From Methanoplanus endosymbiosus (GTDB taxonomy: Archaea; Halobacteriota; Methanomicrobia; Methanomicrobiales; Methanomicrobiaceae), in assembly GCF_024662215.1 (NCBI RefSeq), contig NZ_CP096115.1:1178001-1242000 (forward strand): a stretch of DNA of 64,000 nucleotides, written 5' to 3'. The position numbers were made by a program, and so were the translations under genes. This document shows positions 5,363-31,648 of the stretch, piece by piece (the first letter of the stretch is position 1; the number at the start of each line of letters is the position of its first letter). The notes beneath the pieces are model-generated. The model was not told the origin of the DNA. It did not search any database and saw only the letters and a list, made by a program, of their open reading frames with translations.

Positions 5363-5435
5363 TGGACCCAGGGGGATTTGAACCCCCGGCCTCGGCGTTG
5401 CAAACGCCGCGCTCTTCCAGCTGAGCTATGAGCCC
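5363..5435 (-). tRNA. tRNA-Ala (anticodon TGC)
   Basis: The minus strand folds into a complete 73-base cloverleaf. The acceptor stem GGGCTCA/TGGGTCC contains the G3-U70 wobble pair that identifies alanine tRNAs. The anticodon stem GGCGT/ACGCC presents TGC, and the T-arm loop is TTCAAAT. The discriminator base is A and CCA is not encoded. It sits in the 16S-23S spacer, as in most euryarchaea, and no intron is present. Confidence 0.97.
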
Positions 5436-5514: not shown

Positions 5515-6983
<1,469 letters not shown>

Positions 6984-12758: not shown

Positions 12759-12934
12759 CAGGATACTCCGTTATATGAAAGTCATCTCATAGGTTAATTA
12801 ACATTTTGTGTTTTTCCGTCTTATGCGCCATCATCCGGTTTTACTAAATGATAACTGAATAAGTTAAGTTTCAGTATAAACAGAAACATTTCTTCAGAAA
12901 CAATATAATCCTCAGAAAAACAACTCTTTTGAAT

Positions 12935-14206
12935 ATGTCTGATCTGGCAAATTATGATCCGGATATTTACAATTTAATTGAAAAGGAGCGCCTTCGCCAG
13001 GTAAACGGCCTGGAACTCATCGCTTCTGAAAATGTTGTAAGCAAATCAGTCCTTGAGGCTGTAGGTTCAATTCTGACAAACAAATACGCAGAAGGATATC
13101 CCGGAAAGAGATATTACGGCGGATGTGAATTCCACGACCAGATAGAAGATCTCGCAAGAGACCGCCTCTGTAAACTATTCGGTGCTGAACATGCAAATGT
13201 GCAGGCAGTCTCCGGAAGTCAGGCAAATCAGGCAGTATATTTTGCCTTCATGCAGAACGGCGACAAAATGATGAGCCAGGATCTTGCACAGGGCGGCCAC
13301 TTATCACACGGATCTCCTGTAAATATTACAGGAAAATGGTATTCCGTCTCGCATTACGGAGTTGACAAGGAAACCGAAACACTTGATTATGCGCAGATTG
13401 CCGAACAGGCAAGAAAAGAGAAGCCAAAGATGATTGTATGCGGTGCAAGCGCTTACCCGCGTACCATCGACTTTAAGGCATTCAAAGAGATTGCGGATGA
13501 GGTCGGCGCATACTGTATGGCAGATGTGGCGCACATTGCGGGACTCATAGCCGGCGGGCAGCACCCTACATCAGTAGGAGTGACCGACATTACAACCACA
13601 ACCACACATAAGACACTACGCGGACCACGCGGCGGTGCAATCATGTGCGGCGAGGAGAATGCAAAAGCTATAGACAAGTCGGTATTCCCCGGTATGCAGG
13701 GCGGACCACTGATGCATGTCATCGCCGGAAAGGCAGTATGCTTCAGAGAGGCTCTTACACCTGACTTTAAGGAGTACGCAAAGCAGATCGTCAGAAACTC
13801 ACAGGCAATGGCAGAGGTTATGATCAGCGAAGGACTTGACCTTGTCTCCGGAGGAACTGACAACCATCTGATCCTTCTTGACCTGACAAACCTTGCAGCA
13901 AACGGTTCACATCTGACCGGACTGGAAGCAGAAACCTTCCTTGGAGAAGCAGGAATAACAGTCAATAAGAATACCATTCCAAGAGAGAAGCTCAGCCCAT
14001 TCGTCACAAGCGGCCTTAGAATCGGAACACCGGCTGTGACATCAAGGGGAATGAAAGAAGAAGAGATGAAGCAGATCGGACACTGGATTGCAGCTGTACT
14101 TAAGGATGTCTGTAAGGACAAAGACTCAAAGAAGGCAATTACAGAAGTCCGTGCCGAAGTAGAGGCACTTGCTTCAGGATTTACACTCTATCCGGAAGTC
14201 AAATGA
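12935..14206 (+). CDS. glyA: Serine hydroxymethyltransferase
   Basis: This PLP enzyme interconverts serine and glycine with transfer of a one-carbon unit to a pterin carrier. It shows the family N-terminus with LIASENVVS, the [15 protein letters not shown] block, and the PLP lysine in [14 protein letters not shown] near residue 230. In methanogens the carrier may be tetrahydromethanopterin or folate, and the adjoining folD hints at folate. I chose ATG at 12935. An in-frame TTG lies two codons earlier. The stop overlaps the folD start by 4 bases (ATGA). Confidence 0.95.
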
Positions 14207-27343: not shown

Positions 27344-29185
27344 TCAACCATTGACGTTCCTTTGTGATTCAGAGAGCAGATTCACAATATCACTACAAAT
27401 ATTATTCTTAGATAATGCATTTATTCTGAAATTATCAACATCAATTCTCATACCATACAGGCTGCCCGAAACTTCTGCAGGCATGCCATTGCACAGCCCA
27501 TCAGTCCTGCCGGACAATACATAGCAGAGAGACCCGTTCTCAATTATAAGCCCGGATGCTGTTTCAATAACCACACCATAAAATGAGATTTTTTCCCTGC
27601 CTGTGCAATAGCGGGATGTGACCACCCGCAGAAGAGAGTTCACGCCCGCATGTATCTCACACCCGCCGCAGGAATTATACATGGAATTGTTATTATCCGG
27701 AATTTTGGCAAAACCATTTACTATCTCAATAATCTCCCCTTCTGACACCGGAATTTCTGCATTATCACCCCATAAGACAACATTCCGGCAGACGGGTTCA
27801 CCAGACGCAGCAGAGATGAGATCAGGCACAGATGATACAGACGGCAGACCAGGCCCGCAGGACGAACATTCAGTGCAGTCACCCTGAGAGTCAGAAACAG
27901 AGCAGTGGGTAGAGTCAGCACTATCAGACTCATAATCGGCCACAACAAGATTTCTTACGCAGGAGACACTTCCATTCACAGAATAAAACTGATGCACCCT
28001 TCCCACAGAGAGAAGACGGCAGATAAAAGATGCAGAATGACCCGGTTTAGCCTGAGAAGGTGAGGAATAAGTGAAATCAGCAGGATTGTAAGCCGGAATA
28101 AGAGTGCTCTTCCTTCCGGCTGAAAATCTGAGATCGCCACTGGCAGACGGGATGCGGATTAAATATTCTGCCTTTGCAGAGGTCCCCTCAGAGATATCTT
28201 CCGGAAGAGAAAAGTCCCTGAAGGTTATGGTGAAGGTATCAGTTCCTCTGCCGCAGAAGAGTCTGAAGTATAAGGGGTTGTCTCCCTCACCGGAGATGTT
28301 ACAGCCGGAATATTCACCGGTTATGCTGCCGCATTTCGTACTGTTCCGTTCTCCCCTGTGAAACTGGGAACTCCCGCCCCCTTTATGACGGTAATCTCTG
28401 TCAGATCCTTTATCTCCATAATGCCCGAATTTAATCCCAAGAATGACAAAATCAACGGAACTGCAAAGGATCTTCTTCTGCCCGTCCTCCCTGGGCGAAA
28501 TATAAGCATCAGAGAGCCGGAGATCAACAGCATAGACCTCTCCGGATGACTTATACCTGCCGGCAACCTCAAGCACACTTCCGGCAGGGACTTCCATAAC
28601 GGCAGATGCCATCTCATCCCTGAAATGTACGATAACCTCGCCTGTTTCATCACCACAAAGAAGCATGAGCCTTATATTAGGAAATTCCGGAGAAAACCGG
28701 GGATTAGGTTTCAAACCGGATTCAGAAAAACTCTTCCCGGCACGTCCGGAGAGATTCTGACGGAGACGGGATTTCTGCGCCTGTCTGTTTGAGTGATAAC
28801 TCTCCGAGGAAGTATTAACATAACGCCCGCCACCGTCAGAATAGTTGAAACTCTGAGAATAACTGCTGAAGAGATGAGACTCTTCATCCTGACCGGAACT
28901 GCCAGGATATTCTGAACCGGAATTTAACTCATCCGGGAAATTAACAGAGGCTTCGCTCTCAGGAGGCAGATAACGGTCAATAATCCGGCAGTAAAAAGAT
29001 GTAAGGGTTGGCCCTTTTTTGATGTCCGCAATCTTTGTATGCAGGCGGCCCAGTTTCCCGGCTGCGGCCGCTGCTGCAGAATGGGAGTCATGATCCGGCG
29101 TTAAGCCACCGGAGGAAGAGAGAAGAAGTTCTTCAAACTCCTCCTCAGAAACCAGATCATCAACGAGTGCGTAATATGCCCTCAC
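27344..29185 (-). CDS. Divergent RPA-like OB-fold protein with long Ser/Gly-rich linkers
   Basis: The 613-residue protein starts with a segment like that of archaeal replication protein A: LVDDLVSEEEFEELL, then GKLGRLHTKIADIK leading into an OB-like strand. OB-type segments can be seen at about 170-245 and 520-600. They are joined by long low-complexity linkers (80-165 and 245-300) rich in Ser, Gly, Tyr and Asp. A Cys-rich stretch lies near 430-450. It starts with GTG, lies 22 bases after lysA and 86 bases before radA. A role in single-stranded DNA binding with RadA is likely but inferred. Confidence 0.65.
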   Translation of the reverse strand: MRAYYALVDDLVSEEEFEELLLSSSGGLTPDHDSHSAAAAAAGKLGRLHTKIADIKKGPTLTSFYCRIIDRYLPPESEASVNFPDELNSGSEYPGSSGQDEESHLFSSYSQSFNYSDGGGRYVNTSSESYHSNRQAQKSRLRQNLSGRAGKSFSESGLKPNPRFSPEFPNIRLMLLCGDETGEVIVHFRDEMASAVMEVPAGSVLEVAGRYKSSGEVYAVDLRLSDAYISPREDGQKKILCSSVDFVILGIKFGHYGDKGSDRDYRHKGGGSSQFHRGERNSTKCGSITGEYSGCNISGEGDNPLYFRLFCGRGTDTFTITFRDFSLPEDISEGTSAKAEYLIRIPSASGDLRFSAGRKSTLIPAYNPADFTYSSPSQAKPGHSASFICRLLSVGRVHQFYSVNGSVSCVRNLVVADYESDSADSTHCSVSDSQGDCTECSSCGPGLPSVSSVPDLISAASGEPVCRNVVLWGDNAEIPVSEGEIIEIVNGFAKIPDNNNSMYNSCGGCEIHAGVNSLLRVVTSRYCTGREKISFYGVVIETASGLIIENGSLCYVLSGRTDGLCNGMPAEVSGSLYGMRIDVDNFRINALSKNNICSDIVNLLSESQRNVNG

Positions 29186-29207: not shown

Positions 29208-30503
29208 TCACTTCTCAACCCATGGAAGGTCAACCATGGTATTCAGTATATCGATGACAGTCTCACCACGTCTCATATAGGCCGAACGGTCACTACTGAC
29301 CATAATCTCCGGGCATCTGGGGCGGCAGTTGTACTGGGATGCCATTGAATAGCCATACGCACCGCAGTCAAGTACGGCAATCAGGTCACCCCTGTCAACA
29401 TGCGGCAGCGGTCTGTCAGCCGCAATAATGTCTCCGGACTCACAGATAGGCCCTGTGACTGTATATTCAAGCTCAGGCTCCTGATCTGCCTTATTTGCAA
29501 CAACAACCTCATGATATGAGTCATACATTGCAGGGCGCAGGAGAAGATTGAATCCGGCATCGACATTTACAAATTTTTTATGCGCTGTCTTTACAGAATT
29601 GACACCTGTCAGCAGTATTGTGGTATCACCCATCAGGTTTCTGCCCGGCTCAACCCATAATTCCGGTTTGATACCAATTTTAGCAATACCTTCCAGGAAT
29701 ACCGGCATAACAGCATCTGCATACTCCTCAGGAGTAGGCGCGTTGTCTGTGTCATGGCGGTAAGGAATTCCAAGCCCGCCGCCTATATCAATGAACTTCA
29801 GTTTAACACCGATATCGGTGAGCTGACCGGCAATCTTCACCATGATCTCAGCCGCTTTGGCAAACGGAATAACATCGAGAATCTGTGATCCGATATGGCA
29901 GTGCATGCCAACCGGAGTTACATTCTCTGCATCAAGGGCTGAGCGGTAAGCGTCAAGGATCTGCTCCGCCGGTATCCCGAACTTGCTTGTCGCAAGTCCG
30001 GTTGCAATTTTAGGATGAGTGGGAACATCAATTGCAGGGTTTATCCTGAATGACACCTCAACCTCCTTTCCCTTCGCCTTTGCAACCTCTGAGAGCTGAT
30101 CAAGTTCATCAAAGGAGTCGATTGAGACCTTAACGCCCTTTTCAACCGCAAGTTCGAGATCTTCCTTTGTCTTTGAACTGCCATTGAAGAGAAGCTTTTC
30201 AGGGTCCATTCCGGCAAGAAGGGCAAGATGAAGTTCTCCGGAAGAGAAGACATCAGCACCTGCGCCCATATCAGCAAAGGTCTTAAGAACGGCCATATTT
30301 CCGTTTGCCTTTGCAGCGTAGAGCATTTGTACATTATTATAATGTTTCTTTAACGCGCTGTTATACCGGGTGAAATTATCCCTTATTCTCTGCTCGTCAG
30401 TTACGTACAGCGGAGTCCCGTAACTCTCTGCAAGGGCATTGCAGTCATGGCTGCCGATCATAAGATGACCGTCCTTTATTGTCAGGTGTTTTGGAAGTTT
30501 CAG
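29208..30503 (-). CDS. lysA: Diaminopimelate decarboxylase
   Basis: LysA makes lysine from meso-diaminopimelate using PLP. It shows the PLP lysine in YAAKANGN, the [10 protein letters not shown] motif, [15 protein letters not shown] and the EPGRNL and CGAYGYSM blocks. The first ATG is at 30461, but the family N-terminus (IKDGHL before IG-x-HD) continues upstream in frame. The only codon before an in-frame stop that could start it is CTG at 30503, which overlaps the dapL TGA as CTGA. I therefore extend the gene to 30503 (431 residues). The conservative start is 30461 (417 residues). Confidence 0.93.
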
Positions 30504-31648
30504 AAGTCAACACTCCTCATCCTTTCAATTGCCTCTCTTATTCTTTCAATGTTTCTGGTGATCGCAAATCTGACATATCCGTCACCATTGCTGCCAAAAC
30601 CAACTCCCGGAGTCACAACAATACCGGCATCATCAAGCATCTTCTTTGCAAATCCCATTGAATCACTGACCTTTAACCAGACATAGAAGGTTGCCTCTGG
30701 TGATGTCACTTCAAAACCGAGATCTCTCAAACCGTTTACCAGGACATCACGCCTCTCCTGGTACACATCACAGGCATCTGCAACGCACTGCTGCGTGGAG
30801 GTAAGAGCTGTTATTCCGGCACGCTGTATGGCATCAAATGCACCAGAGTCAACATTTGTCTTAACACGGCCAAGTCCGGAGATGAACTCCTCCCCTCCGC
30901 ATGCCATACCAAGCCGCCATCCGGTCATATTATAAGTCTTTGAGAGGGAGTGCATCTCCATTCCAACCTCTTTTGCACCGTCTGCCTCAAGGAATGATGG
31001 TGCTTTATAGCCGTCAAAGGTTATCTCAGAGTAGGCATTGTCATGAACGGCAACGATATCATTCTCCTTTGCAAATTCAACAACCTCCTCAAAGAATGAG
31101 AGAGGGGCAACTGCGGCAGTCGGATTGTTCGGATAGCCAAAAAACATTAGTTTAGCTTTCTTTACAACATCCTTTGGTATATCCTCAAATACCGGAAGGA
31201 ATTCATTCTCCTCCTTAAGTGGCATCTCCCAGAGTTTTCCTTCTGAAAAGAGGGTTGAGGTCTTATATACCGGATATCCGGGATCTGTTGCAAGGACATA
31301 ATCTCCCGGATTTACAAAAGCCTCCGGTACGTGGGCAATGCCCTCCTTAGAACCTATAAGTGCCAGAACTTCAGTTTTAGGATTTAAAGTGACACCAAAT
31401 CGTGTACTGTACCACTCAGCAACAGCCTCACGGTATTCAATCATACCGGTGTAATCAGGATAATGATGGGTTGAAGGGTCCCTTGCTGCCTCACATAGTG
31501 AATCAACGATATGATCAGGTGTTGGAAGATCAGGATCTCCTACGCCGAGATCAATCACATCAACTCCCTGCGCACGTTTTTCTGCCTTTAACGCATCTAT
31601 CTGAGCAAAAAGATATGGGGGAAGATTATCAAGTCGGTTTGCATACAT
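30500..31648 (-). CDS. dapL: LL-diaminopimelate aminotransferase
   Basis: DapL converts tetrahydrodipicolinate directly to LL-diaminopimelate, a short lysine route used by methanogens. The protein, 382 residues from my start, has the PLP lysine in [14 protein letters not shown] and the [10 protein letters not shown] motif. A longer frame opens at 31783, but the extra 45 residues are hydrophobic and unlike the family. ATG at 31648 gives [14 protein letters not shown], and a TATA box ends about 28 bases before it. It is first in an operon with lysA, the RPA-like gene, radA and the phosphatase. Confidence 0.94.

Follow-up and report, generated by a model that had tools for sequence, protein, structure and literature searches.

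The question raised by this locus, which lies in a window of 64,000 nucleotides from a Methanoplanus genome of 3,163,021 bases (G000), is at which codon the translation of lysA begins. The product of lysA is the last enzyme of lysine synthesis, and its frame extends in the window sequence from stop to stop over positions 30506-29208 on the minus strand. When the frame was read codon by codon, no ATG, GTG or TTG was found between the upstream in-frame stop (TGA at 30509-30507, minus strand) and the ATG at 30461, the opening codons being CTT CTG AAA CTT CCA AAA CAC CTG ACA ATA AAG GAC GGT CAT CTT ATG ATC. The CTG at 30503-30501 forms the tetramer CTGA with the dapL stop codon TGA at 30502-30500, and the two genes overlap by 4 nt (a -4 junction). 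Both points had been made in the first-pass annotation, and its coordinates proved right on re-reading of the frame. Its description of this CTG as the only suitable codon stands insofar as no other codon matches the start column of the relatives, but the frame holds further non-standard codons ahead of the ATG at 30461, namely a second CTG (30485-30483) and an ATA (30479-30477).

The product predicted from the CTG matched the equivalog profile TIGR01048 with 495.1 bits (cutoff 297.9) over residues 9-422, and in a profile search the dapL frame matched TIGR03540 with 628.9 bits (cutoff 593.25), the match beginning at residue 47 of the open reading frame. The features discussed here are listed in Table 1. 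Between lysA and radA, a 613-aa protein is encoded at window positions 27344-29185 (minus strand); it shares 63% identity with its counterpart in the sister species, is fast evolving for its surroundings, and gave no Pfam or NCBIfam match in the profile search.

Table 1. Features of the dapL-lysA region (window positions) and of three further genes (positions in G000:C1, with L-numbered positions in brackets)
Feature	Position	Strand	Remarks
CTG, putative lysA start codon	30501..30503	-	ATG/GTG/TTG at this column in relatives; CTG in G001 as well
dapL stop codon TGA	30500..30502	-	overlaps CTG as CTGA; 433 open codons upstream in dapL frame
lysA (diaminopimelate decarboxylase)	29208..30503	-	431 aa from CTG; TIGR01048; AF2 pLDDT 92.5
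14 codons 5' of first ATG, conserved (M)+13 residues	30462..30503	-	conservation; model strands 7-10 and 13-16
First in-frame ATG, probable internal Met 15	30459..30461	-	Tyr or other residues at aligned place in relatives
GAGGAG, Shine-Dalgarno-like, inside dapL	30513..30518	-	9 nt before CTG; predicted duplex -6.1 kcal/mol
dapL (LL-diaminopimelate aminotransferase)	30500..31648	-	TIGR03540; putative start at MYANRL
ribL-type cytidylyltransferase	G000:C1:1353199-1353636 (L131:11199-11636)	-	first canonical codon is frame codon 60
DUF7287 gene	G000:C1:1323226-1324302 (L130:1226-2302)	-	CTG one base after upstream stop in both species
PIN-like gene after aIF2-gamma	G000:C1:1731939-1732367 (L248:9939-10367)	-	ATA in ATAA in both Methanoplanus

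The lysA start column in relatives

Of 100 relatives, 99 contain a lysA-like sequence, and 80 further loci were taken from named genomes. At the column of the CTG, the relatives within Methanomicrobiales have ATG, GTG or TTG, a few of them one or two codons further upstream, and the conserved N-terminus, including the motif MKLPxHL, reaches in these relatives right to this column, which argues against a chance placement of the CTG. Among the 72 distinct lysA junctions counted in Methanomicrobiales, the -4 overlap NTGA was present in 51 (GTGA 23, ATGA 21, TTGA 5, and CTGA 2), and nearly all the remaining junctions have ATG at -1, 0, +1 or +2. This comparison of the junction had been proposed in the first-pass annotation, and its outcome, a start column of ATG, GTG or TTG mostly in an NTGA overlap, supports the CTG start.

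Within these 72 junctions, CTGA was found only in G000 and in its sister species Methanoplanus limicola (G001; 3,200,946 bases), the sole congener in the set, and the two form one clade in the LysA tree with a support of 100/100. The genomes G003 (probably Methanolacinia), G009 and G015 carry CTTTTGAAG or CTTTTGAGA at the junction, where Methanoplanus carries CTTCTGAAA. The T/C difference at this place leaves Phe as the last residue of DapL (codon TTT or TTC), the pair of last dapL codon and lysA start being TTT/TTG in Methanolacinia and TTC/CTG in Methanoplanus. Since Phe (TTY) is the last residue of DapL, TTG and CTG are the sole start codons that leave DapL unchanged.

The residues upstream of the ATG at 30461 are conserved at the levels of both sequence and structure. 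Of the 15 codons at 30506-30462, 12 are identical between G000 and G001, two differ synonymously, and one is replaced. An AlphaFold model of the CTG product, built with 42 sequences, gave a pLDDT of 92.5 and placed strands at residues 7-10 and 13-16 in a confident beta-hairpin (block pLDDT 91 and 98). Alignment with the LysA structures in PDB entries 2p3e and 1twi begins at frame residues 6 and 9, and the N-terminal strand region is likewise present in these structures. The claim of a conserved LysA N-terminus ahead of the first ATG was thus borne out by the relatives, the PDB matches and the model; an absence of homology in this region had been named as evidence against the CTG, and the alignment shows homology there, leaving the CTG reading unrefuted.

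Probable initiation at CTG and the alternatives

Taken together, these comparisons point to CTG 30503 as very probably the initiation codon of lysA. Three more putative non-canonical starts at gene junctions of G000, described below, add to the case. The full reading, to which we assign a probability of about 0.88, is that lysA is translated from this CTG, read as Met, into a 431-aa enzyme, likely by reinitiation after dapL, and that the codon arose by silent drift at the overlap. Both the use of the CTG in the cell and the direction of the codon change are here deduced from sequence comparison.

The alternative that lysA is translated from the ATG at 30461 into a 417-aa enzyme, the upstream codons being a conserved relic, is very unlikely. 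This ATG is of the preferred codon type, is the choice of gene callers limited to ATG, GTG and TTG, and is shortly preceded by the Shine-Dalgarno-like AGGACGG, for which the predicted duplex of -5.7 kcal/mol is close to the value for the CTG site. The 3' end of 16S rRNA reads AUCACCUCCU; ATCACCTCCT. The duplex predicted for GAGGAG before the CTG ranks at the best quarter of the values for first ATGs and is not exceptional. As the two energies (-6.1 and -5.7 kcal/mol) do not separate the sites, the choice between them rests on conservation, and the upstream codons are conserved in both species with the few changes described above. Most of the relatives have no Met at the place of ATG 30461 and start 14 codons earlier; the residue there is mostly Tyr, which identifies the ATG as an internal Met codon (residue 15 of the CTG product). 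In the structural model, a start at this ATG would delete the first strand and cut the second, breaking the hairpin. Even less probable is a start at one of the other in-frame non-standard codons, the second CTG or the ATA. Both are present in the lysA frame, and ATA starts are suggested elsewhere in G000, but these two codons sit within the conserved N-terminus, where no relative was seen to start, and neither overlaps the dapL stop.

It is highly improbable that the sole form of LysA is a DapL-LysA fusion produced by a -1 frameshift ahead of the dapL stop. The lysA frame is indeed shifted by -1 from that of dapL and stays open over the junction, but a slippery heptamer is absent, and sliding from TTC to CTT breaks the pairing, while the relatives show complete stops and separate starts at -4, -1, 0, +1 and +2, some of them in frame, where a shift would be useless. 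A sequencing error that masks a TTG or GTG would need a single base, CTG and TTG being one base apart, yet the same CTG occurs in the separate genome G001 at 92% amino-acid identity, and an error shared by two independent genomes has hardly any probability. As for initiation at the CTG itself, gene finders usually disallow this codon, so the annotated LysA N-terminus is probably wrong, and an enzyme gene of the whole genus would begin at a codon outside the standard set.

Initiation at the CTG would proceed as follows. The initiator tRNA would read CTG 30503 as Met, giving the 431-aa LysA. On terminating dapL translation at the overlapping TGA, ribosomes would already be positioned beside the CTG, with the Shine-Dalgarno-like AGGAG in the end of dapL, and would most likely restart there. 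Such reinitiation would lower the demand on the start codon, and the overlap would permit a weak one; the CTG itself may be the result of silent drift in the overlapping codon, base 1 of the start codon being base 3 of the last codon of dapL. Termination-reinitiation is plausible for dapL-lysA in view of the 4-nt overlap kept across the order, the AGGAG inside dapL, and a real dapL gene upstream, and reinitiation at the CTG after dapL termination is judged likely from this arrangement.

Initiation of plasmid RepA at CUG is the case behind the listing of CTG in genetic code table 11. As proposed for lysA, the rare CUG start of RepA is believed to require that a reading frame ahead of it be translated, but the RepA gene serves plasmid replication in bacteria and has a leader peptide, whereas lysA is a housekeeping gene of an archaeon and follows a gene of full length.

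Termination-reinitiation has been measured for overlapping gene pairs in Haloferax and Escherichia coli (PMC6728339, PMC10666635), and in PMC6728339 one close Sulfolobus gene pair is cited as not coupled. The pairs described in archaea and bacteria (PMC6728339, PMC10666635, PMC12548453) share with dapL-lysA the -4 overlap, the Shine-Dalgarno motif inside their upstream gene has a candidate counterpart in the GAGGAG of dapL, and dapL and lysA, as in such pairs, encode two enzymes of one pathway. The published overlaps carry ATG or NTG starts, while at dapL-lysA N is C and related junctions have ATA and GTA; the coupling proposed here is deduced from anatomy. By Ribo-seq of Methanosarcina mazei, CTG was called at 5% of new small open reading frames (PMC11456600), likewise indicating CTG for initiation in a methanogenic archaeon, but these frames are unannotated and short, whereas lysA encodes a conserved enzyme and its CTG is backed by comparison with relatives. 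The case for CTG initiation is weakened by the great rarity of CTG starts in comparative data: the counts available from PMC5622118 for triples of close species give switches to CUG at 1 of 2,468 UUG starts and 2 of 61,358 AUG starts. Those switches and that of lysA are alike in leading from AUG, GUG or UUG to CUG between close relatives, but the counts taken from that source are near zero and carry no tie to overlaps, whereas the lysA switch is fixed in the genus, lies at an overlap, and is silent for the upstream gene. The reinitiation at non-canonical codons described in PMC4648390 is eukaryotic and serves as an analogy only.

The window also contains, at 5515-6983 (minus strand), one of the five 16S rRNA gene copies of G000, together with tRNA-Ala(tgc) at 5363-5435. 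The tRNA scan of the compared G000 stretches gave nothing unusual.

Other candidate start codons at stop/start overlaps

Non-canonical starts were searched for in a two-species scan of 864 kb of G000 against the collinear part of G001, covering 452 conserved genes. Conservation in G001 alone gave many false extensions, as non-coding DNA is also closely alike between the two, and each candidate was checked by synonymous changes or by more relatives. Besides lysA, two clear cases were obtained by this unbiased scan, a ribL-type gene and a DUF7287 gene; a third case, a PIN-like gene, came from deliberate inspection of all -4 places.

For the ribL-type gene (protein KKVVATGTFDILHPGHL), most relatives have ATG, GTG or TTG at the start column. 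The codon at this column overlaps the upstream stop as ATA in G000 (ATAA), CTG in G001 (CTGA) and ATA in G020 (ATAG); the start is probably CTG in G014 and possibly ACG in G013. The DUF7287 gene follows an upstream frame of 216 codons, and its first canonical codon, a GTG, is located 25 codons in, inside a hydrophobic stretch; CTG is probably the start in G002 and G015 as well. For the PIN-like gene (protein KVIFDANALMIPGQF), which was named, like aIF2-gamma, from our own reading of the sequence, the NCBIfam search being without a match, most relatives have GTG (GTGA), and GTA (GTAA) is found in G002 and in G041, a member of another family. These start changes look as if a switch of the upstream stop from TGA to TAA had produced them. 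The PIN-like case is weaker, because an in-frame GTG lies 11 codons upstream. The putative lysA, ribL-type and DUF7287 starts are all located at -4 or +1 from the upstream stop, a placement shared by about 59 of the 452 genes (one-sided Fisher test, p = 0.002, the numbers being small, with three cases from the unbiased scan).

It is therefore proposed, tentatively, that overlap starts of Methanomicrobiales can drift freely to CTG, ATA or GTA, the place being marked by the terminating ribosome, and that at least four Methanoplanus genes including lysA are of this kind. Two routes can be envisaged. Wobble of the last sense codon of the upstream gene would convert TTG to CTG silently for that gene, and replacement of a TGA stop by TAA or TAG would convert NTGA to NTAA or NTAG, and hence ATG to ATA and GTG to GTA. 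If this is true, operon overlaps of archaea relax the choice of start codon, and NTAA, NTAG and CTGA junctions at places where relatives have NTGA would provide a simple comparative test of reinitiation. This possible wider pattern is more interesting than the CTG of lysA itself.

A number of candidates were rejected. The glyA gene (window 12863-14204) starts at ATG; the overlaps at 14116 and 14981, together with antisense frames, were discarded after inspection, and most of the CTG, ATA and GTA codons at -4 places were set aside with an ATG near by. Two other genes have N-termini too variable for a decision. A recQ-like helicase gene (G000:C1:1511662-1513857, minus strand) has no canonical start before codon 38, and a short upstream frame ends in a TAA that overlaps ATA in both species. 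A gene for a PH/Yip1-like membrane protein (G000:C1:1635591-1637027, plus strand) has a conserved N-terminus without a canonical start, and is overlapped in another phase by a short conserved frame (ATG ATA ATT ...).
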